DNA of 64,000 bases from Gracilimonas sediminicola (GTDB taxonomy: Bacteria > Bacteroidota > Rhodothermia > Balneolales > Balneolaceae), in the NCBI RefSeq assembly GCF_024320785.1, contig NZ_JANDBC010000001.1, positions 1,432,001 through 1,496,000 of the forward strand, in the 5' to 3' direction. The notes below the pieces were generated by a model. The model saw nothing but the letters and a program-made list of their open reading frames with translations, did not search any database and was not told the origin of the DNA. Both the position numbers and the translations under genes were made by a program. This document shows positions 21,012 through 34,736 of the stretch, piece after piece. Position 1 is the stretch's first letter, and each line of letters opens with the position of its first letter.

Positions 21012-21947
21012 TTATCCTTCTTGTTTGCTTTCCCAGGCACGCTGAACCGTCACGCGGTCTTCGTCTTCCGGGACAAATCCTTTAAGGTCGTCAAGATCGG
21101 TGTTGTTGATGTGATCTATCGCCTCTTTGGCATTCATATCAGTGGAAACCTTGTCGGAAGATGACTCTTCAGCTTCTTCTTTCTCTTCTTCAGCCGGCTC
21201 TTCGTCTTTGGTTTCTTCCTCGGCGGCTTCTTCCGTTTCCTCTTCAGCAGCTTCAGCAGAATCTTCTTCTGTTTCTGCTTCGTCTTCTGCAGGTGCTTCT
21301 TCTTTAGCTTCGGTTTCTTCTTCAGCTTCATCAGCTGCTTCTTCCTCGGCTTCGGCTTCGGCTTCCGCTTCTGTAGTTTCTTCTTCGGCAGCTTCTGTTG
21401 TTTCTTCTGCAGAGTCATCAGACTCAGCTTCTTCTAATGCCGCTTCAATTTCTTCGGCTTCATTTTTAGGAGCTTCGTCTTCTTCTGCATCGGCAGCCGC
21501 TTTTTCAGCTTCTACTTCAGCAGCAGCTTGCTTCGCTTTTTTCTGAAGCTGCTCTTTGTATTCTCTTTCTTCGGCAGCAAGCACTTCCTGGTAGTCCGCT
21601 TTGCGGCTGGTGGCATCTTCTTTCTTAGAGTCTCTGTACTCTTTCCACTCTGCCAGTGCTTTTTCAATTTCTTCTTCGCTCTTGCCCCAGTTTATGAGGT
21701 GACGCTTGTACAGTACACCTTCTCGGCGAAGGATTTTACGTACGGTGTCGGTAGGCTGAGCGCCGGTGTCTAACCAATAAAGAATGCGGTCTTCGTTGAG
21801 TACCACTTCTTTTTTCTCGGTTACGTTGTCGTAACGACCCACACGCTCTACGATACGTCCATCACGAGCTTCGTGTCTTTCGGCTACTACGATATGCCAA
21901 ATCGGGCGTTTTTTACGTCCTTTTCGTTGTAATCTGATTCTTAACAA
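21012..21947 (-). CDS. rpsP: 30S ribosomal protein S16 with a 230-residue acidic C-terminal extension
   Basis: Residues 1 to about 85 are ordinary S16 (MLRIRLQRKGRKKRP; RDGRIVERVGRYDN; WLDTGAQPTDTVRKIL), while the total length is 311 instead of about 80-90. A helical linker (90-145) is followed by about 130 residues of Ala/Glu-rich, very acidic low-complexity sequence (145-270) and a short folded-looking end, NAKEAIDHINNTDLDDLKGF plus EDRVTVQRAWESKQ. Similar short terminal modules occur, as I recall, on other ribosomal proteins in this phylum. The acidic repeat makes long apparent reading frames on the opposite strand (serine-rich), which are not genes. The gene is 35 bases after ffh. Confidence 0.95.
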   Translation of the reverse strand: MLRIRLQRKGRKKRPIWHIVVAERHEARDGRIVERVGRYDNVTEKKEVVLNEDRILYWLDTGAQPTDTVRKILRREGVLYKRHLINWGKSEEEIEKALAEWKEYRDSKKEDATSRKADYQEVLAAEEREYKEQLQKKAKQAAAEVEAEKAAADAEEDEAPKNEAEEIEAALEEAESDDSAEETTEAAEEETTEAEAEAEAEEEAADEAEEETEAKEEAPAEDEAETEEDSAEAAEEETEEAAEEETKDEEPAEEEKEEAEESSSDKVSTDMNAKEAIDHINNTDLDDLKGFVPEDEDRVTVQRAWESKQEG

Positions 21948-21982: not shown

Positions 21983-23323
21983 TTATCGGCCGATAGGCAG
22001 ATTCTTCAATCCTTGAAGAGCACGTCCGGCTTTACCCATTTTTGACATGGTCTTCATCATTTTTTTCATTTGATCGAACTGCTTCATGAGTTGATTGATC
22101 TCACGAACAGTGGTGCCAGATCCTTTGGCTATTCGGCGTCTTCGACTTCCGTTTAGCAGCTCGGGCTCCTGGCGTTCCTCCGGCGTCATTGATAAGATTA
22201 TAGCTTCAATTGGTTTGAAGGCATCATCGTCGATTTCAGTATCGTTCAATGCTTTGCTGGCGCCGGGTATCATAGAAACAAGATCACCGAAGTCTCCCAT
22301 CTTCTTGATCTTCTGAATTTGCTCGAGAAAGTCGTTCAGGTCGAATTTATCCGACCGAATTTTTTGCTGAAGTTTTTCTGCTTCCTTCTCGTCAAATTCT
22401 TTTTGAGCTTTTTCAACAAACGAAACCACATCTCCCATGCCCAGAATACGCTGAGCCATACGGTCGGGATAAAAAGGAGAAAGAGCATCCAGCTTTTCGC
22501 CGGTACTCACAAATTTGATGGGCTTGTTTACAACGGTCTTAATGGAAAGAGCAGCACCACCGCGGGTGTCACCATCCAGTTTGGTTAAAACCACACCGTT
22601 ATAATCAATGCGTTCGTTAAACTCTTTGGCTGTGTTAACAGCATCCTGCCCGGTCATGGAATCGACCACAAACAGGATTTCGTGAGGATTTACGGCCTTC
22701 TTAATTTCCGCAACCTCATTCATCATCTCCTCATCTACGTGTAAACGACCCGCGGTATCAATGATAACCGTATCGAGTGCCAAACTTTTAGCCATCGAAA
22801 CGGCTTCTTTGGCAACACGAACCGCATCTTTCTGCTCGATGGAATACACCGGAACATCAATTTGCGAAGCGAGTGTCTTAAGCTGGTCAACAGCGGCAGG
22901 GCGATAAACATCGGCGGCAGCAAGAAGAGGATTCCTTTTATGCTCCTGCTTTAAGTGTCGGGCTAACTTACCAACAAAGGTCGTTTTACCCGAACCCTGA
23001 AGTCCGGCTATAAGAATTACTGTAGGAGGAGTGTCAGCTTTAGCAATGTCGGCCTTTTCGCCACCAAAGGTCTCAACCAGCTTGTCGTGCACAATTTTTG
23101 TGAACTGCTGGCCGGGATTAACACTGGTGAGTACATCAGAACCGAGCACCTGCTCTTTGACATCTTCCGTAAACTGGCGGGCAACCTCATAATTAACGTC
23201 AGCATCCAGCAATGCACGGCGAATTTCGCGGACAGTCTCCGCTACATTCACATCCGTGATGCGTGCTTCTCCCTTCAGTGACTGAAAGGCTTTGTCTAAT
23301 TTTGAGGATAAATCTTCAAACAT
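21983..23323 (-). CDS. ffh: signal recognition particle protein Ffh
   Basis: The SRP GTPase that targets nascent membrane proteins. From the ATG at 23323 the product has 446 residues: N domain (FEDLSSKLDKAFQSLKGEAR), G domain with GLQGSGKTTFVGKLARHL, DTAGRLHVDEEMM and TKLDGDTRGGAAL, and the methionine-rich M domain near the C terminus (MKQFDQMKKMMKTMSKMGKA) that binds 4.5S RNA. A TTG at 23350 would add nine residues; the ATG matches the family start. No 4.5S RNA gene was found nearby. It is the first gene of the ribosomal block. Confidence 0.96.
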   Translation of the reverse strand: MFEDLSSKLDKAFQSLKGEARITDVNVAETVREIRRALLDADVNYEVARQFTEDVKEQVLGSDVLTSVNPGQQFTKIVHDKLVETFGGEKADIAKADTPPTVILIAGLQGSGKTTFVGKLARHLKQEHKRNPLLAAADVYRPAAVDQLKTLASQIDVPVYSIEQKDAVRVAKEAVSMAKSLALDTVIIDTAGRLHVDEEMMNEVAEIKKAVNPHEILFVVDSMTGQDAVNTAKEFNERIDYNGVVLTKLDGDTRGGAALSIKTVVNKPIKFVSTGEKLDALSPFYPDRMAQRILGMGDVVSFVEKAQKEFDEKEAEKLQQKIRSDKFDLNDFLEQIQKIKKMGDFGDLVSMIPGASKALNDTEIDDDAFKPIEAIILSMTPEERQEPELLNGSRRRRIAKGSGTTVREINQLMKQFDQMKKMMKTMSKMGKAGRALQGLKNLPIGR

Positions 23324-23362
23324 AATGTTAACAGGATTTTTCTCCGCCAATTACAGAGCCTG

Positions 23363-23393
23363 TAAAAATACGGGTTCTTTTCCGTGTTATCAA
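23363..23393 (-). promoter_or_regulatory. candidate promoter of the ffh-rpsP operon
   Basis: On the minus strand TTGA, a 19-base spacer and TATTTTTA precede the ffh start by about 40 bases. The second box matches TAnnTTTG at seven of eight positions. It is a pattern match only. Confidence 0.35.
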
Positions 23394-23487
23394 CAACAAT
23401 GTGGATAAATGTTTTTGAGTGATAAATCGTGAACGGAAGTAACGGTTCGATCTTTCCCTCTTTTTAAACCAGAGGTTCAGGCAGGTA

Positions 23488-23508
23488 TTACGAACGAGAC
23501 GTTCGTAA
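23488..23508. repeat. perfect short hairpin TTACGAACG-AGA-CGTTCGTAA
   Basis: A perfect 9-bp stem with a 3-base loop, REP-like in style, without a T-run. Confidence 0.6.
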
Positions 23509-23554
23509 CGAGAAAAATATGCTAAATTGGTTAAGTGCCTGATTTATCCCAATC

Positions 23555-23632
23555 GTTCAAGCGTCCGCTTGGACGAACTCATTTCTTGTTCCAGCTTTTT
23601 TAGTTCCATACCGCACAAGTGGACGGTTGCAC
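23555..23632. repeat. AAGCGTCCGCTT-family repeat, copy 1 (degenerate)
   Basis: The left end GTTCAAGCGTCCGCTTGGAC matches the left end at 26458; the right end ACCGCACAAGTGGACGGTTG is a decayed form of the right end at 26517. The two ends are inverted repeats of each other. Confidence 0.65.
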
Positions 23633-23743
23633 TATTGCCATTATAAATTTCCCATTTGGTTAAACCCTCATCAAACTCTCCCGGAACAAAATCGCTTTTC
23701 TCTTCTTTAACTGAGTGAATTTTCCGCAAAAAAATTTTAGGTC

Positions 23744-24118
23744 ATGAGAAAGTTAGCGATGATAGTGCCGCTTGTTATTGCATTCAGTGCATGTGCAAGT
23801 ACCAAACCTCCAAACGACAAACTGACCCAGGTTGAAGCCTCCATTCAGCAAGCCGAACAAGTGGGAGCTGAAAACTATGCTCCGCTTGAGATCCGCGAGG
23901 CCCGCAAGAAACTGGACAAAGCCCGGGAACTTGTTTCCAGGGAAAAATACGGGAAGGCTAAGCGAACGGCTGACCGCGCTATGGTAGATGCGGAATTGGC
24001 CCAGATGAAATCATTATCTGAAAAAGCCCAGAAAGCCGTACGGGAACTACGGGAAAGCATCCGCGTGCTTCAGGAAGAAATTCAGAATAACTTAGAAAAA
24101 GCGGAGCGTCAGTCATGA
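23744..24118 (+). CDS. DUF4398-type lipoprotein
   Basis: A 124-residue lipoprotein. A signal peptide ends in the lipobox FSAC (Cys17). The mature part is a helical DUF4398-like domain rich in Ala, Lys and Glu: ASIQQAEQVGAENYAPLEIR at 32-51, KLDKARELVSREKYGKAKRT at 56-75, then a coiled coil to the end. The neighbouring gene overlaps its stop (ATGA) and encodes a related lipoprotein with an OmpA domain, so the pair probably form a peptidoglycan-linked outer-membrane complex. Function unknown. Confidence 0.85.
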   Translation: MRKLAMIVPLVIAFSACASTKPPNDKLTQVEASIQQAEQVGAENYAPLEIREARKKLDKARELVSREKYGKAKRTADRAMVDAELAQMKSLSEKAQKAVRELRESIRVLQEEIQNNLEKAERQS

Positions 24119-24999
24119 GAGATTGTACAAGAAATAGTTTAGTTGCTCTCAGCCTGATTATTCCATTGCTGTTAGCCGGTTGTGGCGGACCTCCACAAAA
24201 CAACCCACTGCTTACGGAAGCCAGGCAGTCTTATGATAAGGCTGAGCGAGACTCCATGATTGTAATGAAAGCCCCTGTTGCATTGAAGGAGGCCGAAGAA
24301 GCCCTGGAGCAAAGCCATCAACTGTGGGAAGAGGGTGCTGATAAAAACCTGGTTGAACATTATGCATATATCGCCCATCAGAAAACCAAAATTGCCCGCG
24401 AAACCGCTGAATTAAATGCAGCACAGGATGAGGTGGAGCGCGCCGAAGCCGAACGAAAAGAAGTGTTGATTGAAGCCCGGAAAGCGGAAGCCATAGCAGC
24501 CGAGCAGCGCGCTGAAAAGGCCATGACACAACTTCAACAAGAACGAAAAGAAGCAGAAAAAGCCCGGCAGGAAGCATCCGAACTGGCAGACCGGTTATCA
24601 GAGATGGAGGCCCGCCAAAGTGAACGTGGCATGGTGCTGACTCTGAGCGATGTGCTTTTTGACTTCGACAGTTCTACACTGAAAGCCGGAGCCAATAAAG
24701 TGGTAAATGAACTGGCCGCCTTTCTGAACAACTATCCCGAGCGCACGGTCCAAATTGAGGGCTTTACAGATAGTGTGGGCTCAGCTGAGTACAACAAAAA
24801 TTTATCGCAGCGAAGAGCGGATGCTCTGAAGCAGGCGTTAATTAAAGCAGGGATCTCTTCACAGCGAATTGAGACGGTGGGATATGGAGAAGAGTATCCG
24901 GTAGCCACAAATATGAACGAGGCCGGAAGACAACAAAACCGGCGGGTGGAAGTTATAATATCCAACGAGAATGGAGCTGTTTCGCAACGTACGGAATAG
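24115..24999 (+). CDS. OmpA-family lipoprotein with DUF4398-like coiled coil
   Basis: A 294-residue outer-membrane lipoprotein. Lipobox LLAGC (Cys near residue 22), a DUF4398-like helical region at 30-110, a long charged coiled coil at about 110-170, and a C-terminal OmpA peptidoglycan-binding domain: LSDVLFDFDSSTLKAGANKV, the diaminopimelate-binding GFTDSVGSAEYNKNLSQRRA and GYGEEYPVATN, then NRRVEVII. It likely tethers the outer membrane to the cell wall. It overlaps the upstream DUF4398 lipoprotein gene, and a strong terminator follows. Confidence 0.92.
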   Translation: MRDCTRNSLVALSLIIPLLLAGCGGPPQNNPLLTEARQSYDKAERDSMIVMKAPVALKEAEEALEQSHQLWEEGADKNLVEHYAYIAHQKTKIARETAELNAAQDEVERAEAERKEVLIEARKAEAIAAEQRAEKAMTQLQQERKEAEKARQEASELADRLSEMEARQSERGMVLTLSDVLFDFDSSTLKAGANKVVNELAAFLNNYPERTVQIEGFTDSVGSAEYNKNLSQRRADALKQALIKAGISSQRIETVGYGEEYPVATNMNEAGRQQNRRVEVIISNENGAVSQRTE

Positions 25000-25018
25000 C
25001 TTCATACGCGAAGAGAGA

Positions 25019-25052
25019 CAAGGGGGAAGGTTGATCACTTCCCCCTTTTTTT
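25019..25052 (+). terminator. terminator after the OmpA-lipoprotein gene
   Basis: AGGGGGAAG pairs with CTTCCCCCT around an 8-base loop and is followed by a T-run. Confidence 0.88.
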
Positions 25053-25466
25053 ATTGTTATAGTGAGAGCTGATAAAGTGATAGAGTGATTTGACCCAGCT
25101 TTGAAATTATTCCCTATCTAATCCAAGCGGACGCTTGCACTGGTTGCGCGATTTATTAGGATGACATGACCCCTCCCAATGCTGAGTAACCGAGAATACA
25201 ATCCATCATTCCGCTTCCGCTTAGCAGGGCCATGCGTATTAATTGGGAGAAGCGGGGTGATGGATGGGACTGTATTCGCCTGGCGAAGTTCCATCACCCG
25301 GCTCTTGTCAAATTCAACAACATTTTCTGAGCGTGCTGAGCCGAATGATGGGATTTTGATATAACGAATTTAAAACGCTTCTACTTTTTGACTGCTATCC
25401 GAAAAGTGATTTTCTTACCCGTCATTATGGTTTAGTTTTCCGTAGAATCTCCCCATAACTTTTTTT
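25053..25466. other. repeat-bearing intergenic stretch before the ABC cassette
   Basis: No credible gene. Most of it is copy 1 of the 236-bp repeat (25124-25360). The last 100 bases are AT-rich and must contain the promoter of the ABC cassette. A 61-codon frame inside the repeat is spurious because its counterpart in copy 2 is only conserved as DNA. Confidence 0.5.
25124..25360. repeat. 236-bp direct repeat, copy 1, with nested palindromes
   Basis: Nearly identical to 26524-26759 (about 15 differences by eye, including one 1-base indel). It starts with CAAGCGGACGCTTG and ends with GAATGATGGGATTTTGAT. Within it, CCATCATTCCGCTTC (25203) pairs with GAGCCGAATGATGG (25338), and GAAGCGGGGTGATGG (25249) pairs with CCATCACCCGGCTC (25291), giving one long nested fold. 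An alternative of two side-by-side stem-loops is also possible. It lies just upstream of the ABC cassette. Confidence 0.85.
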
Positions 25467-25760
25467 ATGGCCTTTTTGGGATATAAAATCTTACTAAGAA
25501 AATACCTGCTCATAGACTTAGGCGTATTGTTATTATTAATTGTGCTTCCTCTTTATATCTCACCCGATGAAGCTGTTTCTGCCTTTCGGAGAGCCGTTCT
25601 GTATAGCGGTTTTATAACACCAGGCATTAGTTACCTCGAGATCAAAAAATCTCACCAAGCTCCCTTCTTTGATAACTTAGGCGTGTCTTACCTGGCTTTA
25701 TATGCCGTTTTATTTATACTAAAAACGATCTTTACTCTTTTAATTTCGATATATGTCTAA
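25467..25760 (+). CDS. small membrane protein, probable partner of the ABC ATPase
   Basis: I do not recognise a named family. The 97-residue protein has two clear hydrophobic segments (about 13-29 and 73-95) and perhaps a third amphipathic one (41-52). The central motif KSHQAPFFDNLGVSYLAL resembles a 'NLGIS' motif that I recall from tiny membrane proteins beside ABC ATPases in Bacteroidota. Its stop overlaps the ATPase start by 8 bases, so the two are translationally coupled. The visible base composition is AT-rich relative to neighbours. It would be very small for an ABC membrane subunit and may oligomerise. Confidence 0.75.
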   Translation: MAFLGYKILLRKYLLIDLGVLLLLIVLPLYISPDEAVSAFRRAVLYSGFITPGISYLEIKKSHQAPFFDNLGVSYLALYAVLFILKTIFTLLISIYV

Positions 25761-26355
25761 GCTGATCCTGGATAGCATCTTCTTTTATTATCCTGAACTA
25801 AAGGTTTTGCAAGGAGCTTTTCTTGAAGTCCCCAATAGAACTATTACTTGTTTGGTTGGAAGGAATGGCTCCGGCAAAAGCACTCTGTTTAAGATTGCTG
25901 CCGGACAAATACAGGCCGACAGTGGCATAACCCAAATAGAGGAATTAAGACTTCACAAAAAATCTAAGATCACCCGATTTAAGCACCTTTCGTATTTACC
26001 TCAAAAGCCTTTCCTCCCCGGTTCCATAAAAGTGGGCAACCTGATTGATAAAAGTTTTGCTGATCAAGATGAAATAATCGGTCACGTTTTAAAAAAAAGG
26101 GTTAAAAACTTGTCTACAGGTGAGCGTAGATACCTGGAAATTCTATTAGTGCTTTCATTGGGCCGAGAATTTATTTTGCTTGATGAACCCTTTACAGGCC
26201 TTTCTCCCATATTGATAGAGAAAGTTATCGAACATCTCCATAACGCCAAAAATCACGGCTCTGGGATTTTGATCTCTGATCACTATATGAGATACATTTC
26301 TGAAATTGGAGAGTCTTTCTACTTATTGGAAAGTGGAAGAACTCAAGTGCTTTAA
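25753..26355 (+). CDS. small ABC transporter ATP-binding protein
   Basis: A 200-residue ATPase domain and nothing more. Walker A GRNGSGKST at about 36-44, Q-loop PQKP, signature LSTGERRYLEIL, Walker B EFILLDEPFTGL and H-loop SDHYMRY are all present, so it should be active. In size and in the DHYM H-loop it resembles LptB-like ATPases. Its only visible partner is the overlapping 97-residue membrane protein. The pair lies between two 236-bp direct repeats, suggesting a mobile or recently acquired cassette. The transported substrate is unknown. Confidence 0.9.
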   Translation: MSKLILDSIFFYYPELKVLQGAFLEVPNRTITCLVGRNGSGKSTLFKIAAGQIQADSGITQIEELRLHKKSKITRFKHLSYLPQKPFLPGSIKVGNLIDKSFADQDEIIGHVLKKRVKNLSTGERRYLEILLVLSLGREFILLDEPFTGLSPILIEKVIEHLHNAKNHGSGILISDHYMRYISEIGESFYLLESGRTQVL

Positions 26356-26457
26356 TCACGATTGATATTGCTACAATTTGATCGACCTTTCATTTAACAC
26401 TGAGACAGAGCCGTGTTGCCAAAAAAAATTAAGATTATATTCCCCTTCCCCCATCTA

Positions 26458-26543
26458 GTTCAAGCGTCCGCTTGGACGAACTTATTGGTCAATAACATGA
26501 GCCTTTCTTAGATCAACACCGCACAAGAGGACGCTTGCGCTGG
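26458..26543. repeat. AAGCGTCCGCTT-family repeat, copy 2 (best preserved)
   Basis: The left end GTTCAAGCGTCCGCTTGGAC and the right end GCACAAGAGGACGCTTGCGC are inverted repeats separated by about 45 bases. The right end merges with the start of the 236-bp repeat. Confidence 0.75.
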
Positions 26544-26759
26544 TTGCGCGATTTATTAGGATGACATGACCCTCCCAATGCTGAGTAACCGAGAATACAA
26601 TCCATCATTCCGCTTCCGCTTAGCAGGGCCATGTGCATTAATCGGCAGAAGCGGGGTGATGGGTGTGACTATATTCGGCTGGCAAAGCTCCATCACCCGG
26701 CTCTTGTCAAATTCAACAACATTTTCTGAGCGTGCTGAGCCGAATGATGGAGTTTTATG
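26524..26759. repeat. 236-bp direct repeat, copy 2
   Basis: Same orientation as 25124-25360, starting exactly 1400 bases later. The nested palindromic arms are kept. Together the two copies bracket the 97-aa/ABC cassette. Confidence 0.85.
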
Positions 26760-26787
26760 ATCCTGCATTCTGATTTCTCCCCATCTA

Positions 26788-26811
26788 GTTCAAGCATCCG
26801 CTTGAGCGAAC
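26788..26811. repeat. AAGCGTCCGCTT-family left half-unit
   Basis: GTTCAAGCATCCGCTTGAGC matches the left end of the unit at 26458, including the preceding CCCATCTA. No right end follows. Confidence 0.55.
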
Positions 26812-27037
26812 CAACCTCATCTGACGACTACAGTTTGTCCGATGAATTTTCATGCATCATATTTTTCATACCCCCTCATTCGTCAGACCGCTAAAACATG
26901 TTCTCCTGACAAAACAACTTACCAAAACGGTCGGACGAGCCGTACCACTCTACCCGCCTACATCACCCCTCAACTTTCAACTCTCGATTTCATCCCCTTT
27001 AAAACTATATTCCCCTTTCCCTCGTCTTACTTTCAGA

Positions 27038-27631
27038 ATGAACTCGGGACAACACGAACACATGGAAGACGCACAACTGGTACAGGATTTTCGTGGTGGA
27101 AATCACCAGGCTTTTAATACGCTGGTAACGCGATGGCAGGATCGCATTCACCACTTTGCGTACCGCTTTTTTGCCAGTTCCGATGACGCCGCCGAGATCA
27201 CTCAAAAAACATTCATCAAAGCATACCAAAAGCTGGACACACTGGATGATGTAAACAAGTTTGGGTCGTGGTTGTACACCATTGCCAACAACCTATGCCT
27301 TGATGAATTGAAACGAGCGGGCCGAAAACGAGCGACTTCCTATGAAGCGCTCAAGGTTGCACCGCAAACAGAAACGGCCACTCCTGCCGATGGCACCGTA
27401 CTCCGAAACGAAGGACTGGTTCTGCTTCACAAAGCATTACTCCAGCTGCCAGTGGATCAACGAGTGGTGGTAATTATGAAAGAATACGAAGGCCTGACCT
27501 TCAGAGAAATAGCAGAAATTTTAAATGAACCTGAAAACACAGTAAAGTCAAGATTGTATTACGGGTTGAGCGCACTCAAAAAGACGTTCGACTCCTGGAA
27601 CATCAACAAAGAGGTGTTTGATTATGAATAA
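27038..27631 (+). CDS. ECF-type RNA polymerase sigma factor
   Basis: A 197-residue sigma-70 family factor. Region 2 covers about 14-85 (AFNTLVTRWQDRIHHFAYRF; GSWLYTIANNLCLDELKR). Region 4 covers about 130-185 (LLQLPVDQRVVVIMKEYEGL; FREIAEILNEPENTVKSRLY). The start at 27038 is preferred; a longer reading back to 26852 adds 62 residues with no family character, and an ATG at 27062 is the alternative. Its stop overlaps the anti-sigma start (ATGAATAA), so the two are coupled and it is probably autoregulated. Confidence 0.92.
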   Translation: MNSGQHEHMEDAQLVQDFRGGNHQAFNTLVTRWQDRIHHFAYRFFASSDDAAEITQKTFIKAYQKLDTLDDVNKFGSWLYTIANNLCLDELKRAGRKRATSYEALKVAPQTETATPADGTVLRNEGLVLLHKALLQLPVDQRVVVIMKEYEGLTFREIAEILNEPENTVKSRLYYGLSALKKTFDSWNINKEVFDYE

Positions 27632-28304
27632 AGAAACCGCACGATCGCTCTACATGGATTATCTGTATGATGAACTGGAGCCAGATCAACGAAACGAATT
27701 AGAACAATTTTTATCTCAAAACCCGGGGCTGAAGAAAGAGCTGGAAGAACTGTCGAATGTACGCTCGATGCTTTCTCACCTTCCGGTTCAGGACCCGGCC
27801 GAGCAGCTGGTGATGGTTGAACCTCACAAATCCGGATTACAGGAGTGGTGGAATGAGTTAATCGGAGGGTTGCTTCCTCAAAACGGATTTGCCCGCACCG
27901 GCTTTGCAATGGCCTCGCTTCTGGCGGTCTTCGTTGTGATAGGGGCCTTCACAAAATTAAACATCACCGTTGACGATGGCAGTTTTAACCTGGCCTTTGG
28001 AGAGAAACAGGAAATTATCCAACAAGGATTCACCCCGCAGCAGGTTGAAATGCTTTTACAGCAAGTCCGAGAAGATAATGCCGTTATGATTTCGGATGCC
28101 ATTCAGCAAGCACAACAGCAACAGGAAAACCGGATTGAAAAAACGCTGGTCAACTTTGCGGATTACATTGAGCAGCAGCGGCAGTCAGACCTGCAGATGA
28201 TCTCCTCCGGGCTCTATAACATGGAAGAAACATATTACGACCGATTCAGACAAACCGATCAGGTATTAGGCGAACTCATACAAACGGTAAGTACCGGAAA
28301 TTAA
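27624..28304 (+). CDS. membrane anti-sigma factor, zinc-free
   Basis: A 226-residue protein with a cytosolic N-terminal domain (1-75: ARSLYMDYLYDELEPDQRNE) of the anti-sigma type, but without the HxxxCxxC zinc site. One membrane helix follows at about 95-112 (FAMASLLAVFVVIGAF). The long periplasmic part is glutamine-rich and coiled-coil-like (PQQVEMLLQQVRED; AIQQAQQQQENR). It is encoded directly after the sigma factor and overlaps it, so it most likely sequesters that sigma factor. The signal that releases it is unknown. Confidence 0.8.
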   Translation: MNKETARSLYMDYLYDELEPDQRNELEQFLSQNPGLKKELEELSNVRSMLSHLPVQDPAEQLVMVEPHKSGLQEWWNELIGGLLPQNGFARTGFAMASLLAVFVVIGAFTKLNITVDDGSFNLAFGEKQEIIQQGFTPQQVEMLLQQVREDNAVMISDAIQQAQQQQENRIEKTLVNFADYIEQQRQSDLQMISSGLYNMEETYYDRFRQTDQVLGELIQTVSTGN

Positions 28305-28321
28305 ATTTACAGGACAAAATT

Positions 28322-29665
28322 ATGAATATGAAAACGAACACTTTTAAAAACCCCGTCATTGCGAGGGATTCCGCGACCATCGGGAGCAAATCCCGCGGCA
28401 ATCTCCATAAATCGACTTTCGAGCTTAATCAAGGAGATTGCTTCTTCGATCAAGTTGACAGATCAAATTCAAATTACGCGGCTCCTCGCAATGACAGCCC
28501 TAATTTTCTTTCCAGAATAATCCTGTTTGGGTTGATGACACTTTTGCTGTCTTCCCTTTCCTTTGCTCAGGATTTTGATACCAACCGCATGAACCGCGAC
28601 ATCAAGATCATGGAGAATATTCTGGGCGAAATGTTTAAAACCCAGTTTACCTCTAATGAAGGTACCGTGCAGGTGCGCTCACAGGGATATACGATTTTTG
28701 GAAGCGGCTCATCCGGAAATGTAAAGGGAACCTACATTCCGGGCTATGGAGTCATCTTCATGATTCCTGCCACCAGTAACAGATACATTATATCCAGCGG
28801 AAGCTCCGGCTCGAACCGACAGGTTGTTTTCCAGTACAGTTCTGAAGACTCCGACCGTAAGATTGATAAAGAGTCTGTAACCAGCCGAATCGGTGAGTTT
28901 TTACAGGATTATGCTTCAACAATCGGCCAGCTTAAAAATAATGAAAGCATCCTTGTTATCTATGGCTCGGCTAACGCTACCGGAAACCGCACTGCTGTTT
29001 ATAGTATAAGAGGAGATGAAGAAGACCGACCTTCCCCGCTCCCAGTTATTTCAGTTTCTGCAAAGAAATCGGATTTGGATGCTTTCAGAAGTGGCAGAAT
29101 AAATTCAGATGCTTTGCAAAACCGCCTGTCTGTTTCAACCTCTGAAGACAAAGAACGACTCGATCTTAAAGTACTTGGCAACATTTTTGGAACGGCTTTG
29201 GGTGAGGGTGATGGAAATGAGTATCACCTTATTAACAGCAATTCTCTGTCCTACATGTATCTGGACAACTTTGGCGCACTTTACTCACTGGACCTACATC
29301 GTGGACATGCACTGGGTTCTTTAAGCTCAAGTGTATTTAAGCTGAGACTCTCCCGGGATGCTGAGTCGGAAGATCGGGCAGAAGCAGAGGCCAGAGAGCA
29401 TGAACTGGAGCTTACTGAAACCATTGAAAAGGAATACGACGCCCTTGTTAACAAAACCAAAGAGTTCATTATTGATTATGGTCGCACACTCAGCTCTCTT
29501 GAAGACGACCAATACTTGTTGGTTTCACTAAACATCAATGAATCAAGCGACATCATTCCTGAGCGGGTCGATTTCCAGGTTAAGAAATCAACATTCAATC
29601 AACTCGATAAGGGACAAATTTCCAGGGAAGCGGCATTAAATGCTGTAACCCTCACGGAATATTAA
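28322..29665 (+). CDS. secreted protein of unknown function, co-transcribed with ECF sigma pair; N terminus contains a repeat element
   Basis: I do not recognise a family. The mature part (from about residue 83, after SLSFAQ) is 365 residues with strand-rich N-terminal region and a charged C-terminal helix. It lies 17 bases after the anti-sigma gene and is probably part of its operon. The first 82 residues combine a short start (MNMKTNTFK), 47 codons derived exactly from a palindromic repeat (28355-28495), then a signal-peptide hydrophobic core (IILFGLMTLLLSSLSFAQ). The real start may be the methionine inside that core or the first one; the frame is open throughout. The role may be envelope stress-related, given the operon. 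Confidence 0.75.
   Translation: MNMKTNTFKNPVIARDSATIGSKSRGNLHKSTFELNQGDCFFDQVDRSNSNYAAPRNDSPNFLSRIILFGLMTLLLSSLSFAQDFDTNRMNRDIKIMENILGEMFKTQFTSNEGTVQVRSQGYTIFGSGSSGNVKGTYIPGYGVIFMIPATSNRYIISSGSSGSNRQVVFQYSSEDSDRKIDKESVTSRIGEFLQDYASTIGQLKNNESILVIYGSANATGNRTAVYSIRGDEEDRPSPLPVISVSAKKSDLDAFRSGRINSDALQNRLSVSTSEDKERLDLKVLGNIFGTALGEGDGNEYHLINSNSLSYMYLDNFGALYSLDLHRGHALGSLSSSVFKLRLSRDAESEDRAEAEAREHELELTETIEKEYDALVNKTKEFIIDYGRTLSSLEDDQYLLVSLNINESSDIIPERVDFQVKKSTFNQLDKGQISREAALNAVTLTEY
28355..28495. repeat. 141-bp GTCATTGCGAGG palindromic element inside a coding region
   Basis: The ends are GTCATTGCGAGG and CCTCGCAATGAC, perfect 12-bp inverted repeats. Internal arms GCAATCTCC and GGAGATTGC are also inverted. 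The pattern 'GTCATTGCGAG ... GCAATCTC ... GAGATTGC ... CTCGCAATGAC' is a widespread dispersed element in many bacterial phyla, as I recall (similar to RPE-type elements). Its 141 bp length keeps the reading frame of the host gene. Confidence 0.85.
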
Positions 29666-29688
29666 AGTGTAACTAACATCCTATCCAG

Positions 29689-29747
29689 AAAGCTGCCTTG
29701 GATACCGGTCATGAATTTCATCGATCCGTATTCGGGGTGGCTTTTTT
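29689..29747 (+). terminator. imperfect terminator after the secreted-protein gene
   Basis: AAGCTGCC...GGATACCGG can pair imperfectly with CCGTATTC...GGTGGCTT, followed by a six-T run. It ends the sigma/anti-sigma operon. Confidence 0.5.
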
Positions 29748-29934
29748 ACTTTAACGTGCGATTGTGTTTAGGTGTGAATGTGTTAAAGTATCTATATAAG
29801 AACTTTAGCACGTTAACACCTTCCCCCCTCGTTTAAGCGTCCGCTTGGACTTTTTTATATCATAATCCCTCAACGTAATTAAACACCGCACAAGCGGAGA
29901 ACTTTAACACGTTAACACCTTCACACATCTACTA
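29748..29934. repeat. intergenic repeats: TTAACACGTTAGCAC family and AAGCGTCCGCTT copy
   Basis: GTGTTAAAGT and ACTTTAGCAC flank a short AT-rich loop near 29780-29810, then GTTAACACCTT. A copy of the AAGCGTCCGCTT repeat (29831 to about 29899, ends AAGCGTCCGCTTGGAC and CACCGCACAAGCGGA) follows, then TTTAACACGTTAACACCTT again, suggesting that one repeat inserted into the other. No gene was found. Confidence 0.6.
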
Positions 29935-30519
29935 TTACAAAACGAAATTACACTCTTTGTTCAGAGCTCTATCCAGTATTTCTTCATATTCTGCGGCTTC
30001 AATTTCGATACAGCCAAACTGAGCCAGGTGATCGGTGTAGAACTGAGTATCCCAAAGCAGAAAGCCGTTCTTTTTTAATATTTCATGGCAATGATACAGT
30101 GCGAATTTGTCTGCCCACTTTTCTTTTTTAAACATACTTTCTCCAAAGAAAGCGGCTTTTAACTTTACCCCGTACAACCCTCCCACCAGTTCGCCATCCC
30201 GATAAGCCTCCACGCTGCAGGCGTTGCCGTATTGGTTCAGCACATCATAGGAATTGATGATCAGATCGTTAATCCAGGAAGTTTCCCGATTGGCACATTG
30301 CTTTACTACTTCCCGGAAGTTTTGATTTACCCGAACCTCAAACCTCCCCTGCCTAATAATACGGGCTAAGTTATCCGAGGTGTGAAACTCTCCTATAGGT
30401 ATTATCCCCCGCTTTCGGGCCGTGTACCAGTTTACATCTTCGGCCTTTTTATGCTCAGCCATGGGAAATATTCCCTGGCTGTAGGCTTCCAGCAAACTTT
30501 CCGGCGGGATGATTTTCAT
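29935..30519 (-). CDS. aat: leucyl/phenylalanyl-tRNA--protein transferase
   Basis: Adds Leu or Phe to N-terminal Arg/Lys of proteins, marking them for ClpS/ClpAP degradation. The 194-residue length fits. Motifs are PPESLLEAYSQGIFPMAE at 5-22, VNWYTARKRGIIPIG, the GELVGGLYGVKLKAAFFGES block at about 109-128 and GFLLWDTQFYTDHLAQFGC. It is the last gene of a minus-strand group after a beta-propeller protein and a metalloprotease. ClpS is not visible here. Confidence 0.95.
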   Translation of the reverse strand: MKIIPPESLLEAYSQGIFPMAEHKKAEDVNWYTARKRGIIPIGEFHTSDNLARIIRQGRFEVRVNQNFREVVKQCANRETSWINDLIINSYDVLNQYGNACSVEAYRDGELVGGLYGVKLKAAFFGESMFKKEKWADKFALYHCHEILKKNGFLLWDTQFYTDHLAQFGCIEIEAAEYEEILDRALNKECNFVL

Positions 30520-34100: not shown

Positions 34101-34736
34101 AAAGGGCTAAAGCCCTGTCCCAAGCCGGGTCAGGGCCTTTCACCGCCCTGAAGGGCGGAGTAATTATTCCTTAGAATGAAAACGATAGTTTTTGATAAAC
34201 TCCTCATATTCTTCTGAAAAAGACTTTACCTGATGATGCTTTTCTTGTTTATCAATGTAGCCGTTTACTCTTTTCAGTTGTGATTCCCCTACTGACACAG
34301 CGAAGTACTCTTCTTGCCAACCAAACTTCTCAGGAAGCGAGAGGTTTCTGTTTGCCCAATATGAAGACTCCCCTTTTATCAGGTTCATGATGGTCTGAAT
34401 ATTTTGATCAGACGATATTGAAATTAAAGCATGAAGATGATCATGCCAGCCATTGATATTCAAGAGGTGAATCTGCTTGGCTTTTGAATATTCCCGAATG
34501 TGTTGGCAAAGAGTATTTTTATTCTCCAGACTTAAAAGTTTTTTTCTACTTTTTGTAGCCCAAACAAAATGCCCATACATTTTTATAAATGGCATGTCTC
34601 TTGGTTTAATTTTTAGCTTCCCCTTCAGAAAAATAGAAAGGATTAGATAAAATCAAAGCGGGTGTACCATTTAATTGCACCGGCCTTCAGGCCGGTGAAT
34701 GAGTGGCATAAACCGGAAAAAGGGCTTTAGCCCTTT
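34101..34736 (-). mobile_element. RAYT/IS200-like element with inverted REP ends
   Basis: The Y1 transposase is bracketed by sequences that are imperfect inverted repeats of each other. On one side AAAGGGCTAAAGCCCT (34101) and CACCGCCCTGAAGGGCGG (34141) occur; on the other CACCGGCCTTCAGGCCGGTG (34678) and AAAGGGCTTTAGCCCTTT (34719). Each side therefore has two hairpins in mirrored order, as expected for REP-type sequences acted on by a RAYT or IS200/IS605 transposase. Confidence 0.75.
34164..34595 (-). CDS. REP-associated/IS200-like Y1 transposase
   Basis: A single-strand DNA transposase of the HUH/Y1 superfamily, 143 residues. The HUH motif is H53-L54-H55 in GWHDHLHALI, and the catalytic tyrosine is likely Y113 in KRVNGYIDKQEKHH. 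N-terminal GHFVWATKSRKKLL is typical of the family. It is full length with no visible frameshift, so it may be active. No tnpB gene is present. The flanking hairpins suggest a REP-associated transposase rather than a classical IS. Confidence 0.9.
   Translation of the reverse strand: MPFIKMYGHFVWATKSRKKLLSLENKNTLCQHIREYSKAKQIHLLNINGWHDHLHALISISSDQNIQTIMNLIKGESSYWANRNLSLPEKFGWQEEYFAVSVGESQLKRVNGYIDKQEKHHQVKSFSEEYEEFIKNYRFHSKE

Follow-up and report, generated by a model that had tools for sequence, protein, structure and literature searches.

The two 236-bp direct repeats that enclose a small operon in the window (the whole 64,000-nucleotide stretch of DNA analysed here) are best explained, with a probability of about 0.8, as REP-type doublets of a RAYT that would have been duplicated locally around a resident and patchily lost operon, and direct doublets of this kind may now aid its deletion. 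According to this hypothesis, which we derive from sequence comparisons, the cognate enzyme of the repeats would be a RAYT, a Y1/HuH single-strand transposase, encoded in the same genome (G000:C3:297567-298172). The doublets would have been duplicated locally to give the observed pattern of two direct copies with the same loop on either side of resident genes. Synteny suggests that the resident operon was bracketed later in the G000 lineage, and single-doublet sites in a close relative (G007) suggest that recombination or slippage between direct doublets could delete the enclosed DNA. The arrangement is ordinary in kind, with REP/RAYT-type repeats around resident genes, the twist being the frequent enclosure of accessory genes by direct doublets and the expanded hairpin loop. 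A striking picture of a cassette between repeats can evidently come from REP elements and not from a mobile module.

Layout of the repeats and the enclosed operon

The initial annotation had described near-identical 236-bp direct repeats around a two-gene, AT-rich cassette, with other repeats nearby, and each of these features was confirmed. The left copy (r1) occupies positions 25124-25359 and the right copy (r2) positions 26524-26756, both on the plus strand. In a repeat search, their alignment fell into two gap-free blocks, 94% and 96% identical, with a spacing of 1399-1400, and a BLAST search of the G000 genome gave 94% identity across the entire query and no third full copy, a similarity between r1 and r2 that is far beyond chance. 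Each copy consists of one half of a palindrome doublet of a second family (P1), a linker and a doublet of inverted 62-63-nt hairpins, and strong inverted hairpins were formed on folding. A CG-type hairpin on the minus strand (25202-25264 in r1, 26601-26663 in r2) is followed by a GG-type hairpin on the plus strand (25290-25352 and 26689-26751), the loop of the latter being the same in r1 and r2. A search of positions 23300-30000 against Rfam, at E-values up to 1, returned zero matches.

Between the repeats lie two overlapping open reading frames on the plus strand, coding for a small membrane protein of 97 aa (TM97, 25467-25760) and an ABC ATPase of 200 aa (25753-26355). The GC content of the cassette is 38.0%, as compared to 44.9% in the window, 49.3% in the upstream ompA gene and 46.4% in the downstream sigma gene.

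The additional repeats in the region include P1 palindromes with the core CAAGCGTCCGCTTG, which lie at positions 23558, 23616, 25124, 26461, 26524, 26791 and 29834; one such palindrome makes up the initial 14 nt of r1 and another those of r2. They form doublets at 23558/23616 and 26461/26524, the second of which (26461-26537, plus strand, with cores at 26461-26474 and 26524-26537) overlaps the start of r2, and a further palindrome is located to the right of r2 (26791-26804, plus strand). In one congener (G004), CAAGCGTCCGCTTG palindromes were observed on both sides of a Y1_Tnp gene (locus L093, C2:82259-82477), which suggests that the P1 family has a RAYT of its own.

The 200-aa protein matched ABC_tran with an E-value of 2.9e-19, its best relatives in the PDB are LptB-type, and its best NCBIfam model is LptB, with a score of 101.9 bits against a cut-off of 240. 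It differs from the LptB of LPS export also in that its partner is a 97-aa protein and not LptF/LptG. No family was found for TM97 in Pfam or NCBIfam. An AlphaFold model of TM97, obtained with six sequences and of fair confidence (pLDDT 85), contains three long helices plus a short one at a conserved FFDNL motif, which in this model may be the coupling point to the ATPase. The two proteins perhaps constitute an exporter, which is a reasonable guess, and the unit encodes no recombinase.

Related gene pairs, in which a membrane protein of 92-123 aa accompanies an ABC ATPase, are rare elsewhere (G028, G187 and G221). A profile search of genome contigs with the ABC alignment recovered mostly generic ABC ATPases, the sole useful match being a more distant pair in Fulvivirga (L096), in which a 96-aa open reading frame lies directly upstream of the ABC gene. 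Such pairs, in which the LptB-like ATPase has about 200-230 aa, make up a small unnamed family scattered through the phylum (L060 6654-7597; L177 789-1767; L178 812-1824; L096 5708-6657).

A structured hairpin family associated with a RAYT

The hairpins in the repeats belong to a real structured family with fixed ends (TCCATCACC...GAATGATGGA), inner stems that covary, a conserved CC/AA mismatch in the stem and a loop of about 30 nt that is mostly wholly different between loci. There are two flavours, distinguished by the inner stem (GGCTC or CGTTTC-like). Across an alignment of 43 elements and 13 pairs, 97.8% of the cells were paired and 57 were altered on both sides of the pair, as compared to 24.0 in shuffles, and the covariation score was reached by 0 of 500 shuffles. 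Since the pattern used for collecting the hairpins fixed the outer stem plus one variable pair, the evidence that counts is the clear covariation at columns 13 and 15, which lay outside this pattern.

A covariance model identified 18 hairpins at 8 loci in G000, and copies in 7 out of 10 congeners: many in G001, G002, G007 and G009, fewer in G003 and G008, and zero in G004, G005 and G006. The hairpins are intergenic at the loci that were read and, at 6 of the 8 loci in G000, they are paired in inverted orientation at distances of 65-100 bp. Neither GTAG nor any other conserved tetranucleotide was found 5' of the hairpins, and we therefore refer to them as REP-type rather than as canonical GTAG REPs.

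Y1_Tnp has ten matches genome-wide in G000. One of these, a 202-aa RAYT (RAYT202) with the motifs NHFH and YIHQNP, is the protein at C3:297567-298172, and its gene is bracketed by two doublets of the hairpin. Homologs with 62-64% identity in another genus are located among hairpins with the same stem that are 31-36 nt or about 94 nt long, and two of these relatives are likewise flanked by the same hairpins. The same-genus homologs in G003 and G008, with 54-57% identity, have direct-repeat brackets with other hairpin stems. Thus, the stem follows the enzyme, being shared by the 62-64% group and different in the 54-57% group, and the stem tracks the enzyme across genera even though the loop length has changed. 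Because the doublets bracket RAYT202, and related RAYTs in the other genus lie among hairpins of the same stem, the sequence evidence places the 236-bp repeats in a RAYT-associated REP/REPIN-type family. Counting against our preferred explanation, G007 and G009 are rich in hairpins but have no close relative of RAYT202, and G001 has only a partial one.

The likeness to the known REP/REPIN (BIME) systems with their RAYT (TnpA-REP), or REPtrons, is extensive: covarying imperfect hairpins with a conserved mismatched stem position, dispersed mainly between genes, arranged as inverted doublets and flanking a RAYT gene. REPINs are described as a fixed-length spacer enclosed by conserved inverted ends, and sometimes occur in tandem with their flanks (PMC3116915); here, too, the ends are conserved and the spacer is constant in length, not in sequence. 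The nearest described group is subclass 2.6 of the TnpA-Y1 proteins of the Bacteroidetes, the genes of which reportedly have atypical structures on their flanks, with further copies elsewhere in the genome (PMC6006769). The YIHQNP motif of RAYT202 fits this subclass, whereas NHFH fits subclass 2.4 rather than 2.6. Unlike typical REPs, the hairpins in G000 lack the GTAG guide and, at 62-63 nt with a loop of about 30 nt, they are longer than the mostly 31-36-nt hairpins of the same stem in the other genus. The copy number of 18 in G000 is modest for a REP system, and direct doublet pairs recur around ordinary genes.

Integron cassettes also place a gene between structured imperfect palindromes with variable loops and strand asymmetry. 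They differ in that, here, both sites at one locus share their loops and the cargo is old and syntenic where this could be checked. The identification of the hairpins as attC sites was rejected, as their ends (TCCATCA / TGATGGA) contain no RYYYAAC/GTTRRRY core boxes.

A second, different Y1_Tnp (RAYT-like) gene is present in the window (34245-34583, minus strand). Its candidacy as the cognate enzyme was dismissed because no hairpin of the family is nearby; its flanks contain other short hairpins (AAAGGGCTAAAGCCC), and G007 has a Y1_Tnp match on the corresponding side of an 802-aa gene. In another genus of the family, a 187-bp tandem array of 6.3 copies with a 31-nt version of the hairpin was observed (L263 3244-4426).

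Direct doublets around other genes

The initial annotation had taken unlike cargo between the repeats elsewhere as a sign of mobility and, to the letter, similar doublets do enclose other genes. The brackets in G000 enclose the TM97-ABC operon and, at another locus, the RAYT gene. Those in G001 enclose a DUF4398-OmpA operon, a pentapeptide protein and a RelE/ParE-like pair, and those in G009 a pentapeptide protein and a 1082-aa gene; the pentapeptide, toxin-antitoxin and peptidase names of bracketed genes were assigned by eye and not by HMM. Brackets with no evident gene inside were found in G001 (C37), G009 (C99) and G002 (C11).

The loops of these doublets point to duplication in place. A loop identity of at least 70% was observed in 19 of 80 local hairpin pairs, all 19 of which are direct repeats, as compared to 16 of 838 distant pairs within one genome, and both copies at one locus have the same locus-specific loops. 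One case of a dispersed rather than a local copy was noted in G000, in two distant doublets (C1:523319-523478 and C1:1358910-1359072) with 79% loop identity in both hairpins.

One could imagine that a doublet and the TM97-ABC operon together form a mobile cassette that uses site-specific or RAYT-catalysed recombination to enter or leave resident doublets. The bracketing of unlike genes at different loci, the AT-richness of the cassette and the cargo-free single-doublet sites at two loci in G007, one of them exact, would all agree with such a scheme. However, an imported cassette should bring foreign loops, yet the copies at one locus have matching, locus-specific loops, and brackets also surround an ompA operon or no gene at all. 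A composite transposon would be expected to recur at unrelated loci, its cargo lying between the same repeat ends, whereas the 236-bp repeat is confined to its two full copies in G000 and the loops mostly differ between loci. Its cargo would also be expected to be absent unless the repeats are present, but a distant congener (G003) has the operon in place, with similar AT-richness, without the 236-bp repeats. Finally, genomes devoid of the hairpins have the pentapeptide cargo in a syntenic position. We consider the mobile cassette highly improbable, and the claim of the initial annotation that the operon is a mobile exporter module using the repeats as recombination sites is mostly wrong, given an operon in G003 that is not bracketed by the 236-bp repeats and a unit that encodes no recombinase; what stands of it is that the repeats could be substrates for deletion.

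The pentapeptide gene also suggests an order of events, since it adjoins polA at the same site in the hairpin-free G004 and G005, as well as in G003, which has one hairpin. Read most simply, the gene was present first and the bracket came later.

Another account is a plain local tandem duplication, in which replication slippage would have doubled a longer segment, one copy of the operon would have been lost and the REP nature of the repeats would be incidental. At one locus (L020), the duplication runs past the hairpins, covering 688 bp at 91% identity, and tandem copies of REP units are both known (PMC3116915) and seen here in the 187-bp array. Yet the duplicate in G000 comprises only the REP-bearing intergenic unit, with no trace of a second operon copy, and all loci with the pattern carry hairpins, although these loci were found through hairpins. 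We regard this account as unlikely, and favor the local duplication of REP-type doublets. A broader and rather doubtful extension of this reading is that, in this genus, accessory genes come time and again to lie between direct doublets of the expanded-loop REP family, which makes resident genes easy to delete, such that a domesticated single-strand transposase might indirectly shape which accessory genes are retained.

History of the operon in the genus

Among ten congeners, only G000 and G003, from different clades of the genus, have the TM97-ABC operon; the other eight genomes searched lack it. The gene order ffh-DUF4398-OmpA-...-aat is conserved, and the operon directly follows ompA in both genomes. 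In G003, the ompA-TM-ABC arrangement is thus syntenic with that in G000, in a relative without the 236-bp repeats, which is what the initial annotation had named as evidence against its own proposal. The operon in G003 is likewise AT-rich (39.5% GC). In G004, the corresponding site has a P1 palindrome and is free of both repeat and cassette.

The presence of the operon at the same site in two clades might also reflect horizontal exchange, by which the G000 lineage would have acquired it from a related strain through homologous recombination in the conserved flanks on the ompA side, with the repeats either coming along or already present, and without a role. A single transfer requires fewer events than vertical inheritance, for which about five losses were counted on an eight-genome tree. 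However, the ABC and TM97 proteins of G000 and G003 are 62% and 55% identical, respectively, which is less than the 79% identity of the neighboring OmpA, and the 62% value argues in particular against a recent transfer. The divergence of r1 from r2 also suggests that the bracket predates the split between G000 and G007. Exchange seems to us somewhat unlikely. Because the operon proteins are more diverged than their neighbors, we favor an ancestral operon, probably long established at the ffh-ompA locus and lost several times in the genus.

Single doublets in the closest relative

The closest relative of G000 is G007, with 91% identity at third codon positions. Where G000 has its two brackets, G007 has a single doublet without cargo, which agrees to the letter with the single repeat and missing cassette that had been predicted for relatives from mobility. 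At the RAYT locus, the left flank, one doublet and the right flank follow each other without a RAYT gene and with an exact junction, so that the site is empty from end to end. In the region corresponding to the window locus, G007 has one doublet nearly identical to r2 and neither the TM97-ABC nor the DUF4398-OmpA operon.

Across about 160 sites, r1 has nine private changes, r2 one, and the G007 copy three outside its truncated end, corresponding to four differences between r2 and G007. A loss in G007 is likelier than a gain in G000 because r1 and r2 differ more from each other than r2 does from the G007 copy. The split between r1 and r2 seems to be older than that between the two species, and G007 has probably lost the cassette.

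The path of the loss is less simple. At the window locus, the first 26 nt of the G007 copy are absent and its right end is truncated at a repeated CATCACCC; since the edges of the copy are missing or truncated, at least part of the loss was not a simple recombination between r1 and r2, and an illegitimate deletion is equally likely there. At the RAYT locus, left-like and right-like variants follow each other in alternation along the G007 copy, a pattern that fits no single crossover. The repeats that now flank the TM97-ABC operon may now help to delete it, and the exact single-doublet site in such a close relative offers a way to test REP-assisted gene loss in a group that has been little studied.

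Additional observations

Where the DUF4398-OmpA operon is missing from G007 (C2:511-512 kb; L018 8405-9060), approximately the last 21 bp of ompA remain beside a terminator. Elsewhere in the window, an open reading frame of 311 aa (21012-21947, minus strand), named by eye as similar to ribosomal protein S16, lies next to RimM-/TrmD-like genes and has a very long, acidic, Glu/Ala-rich C-terminal extension; its counterparts in G003 and G001 align only over the first approximately 179 residues.
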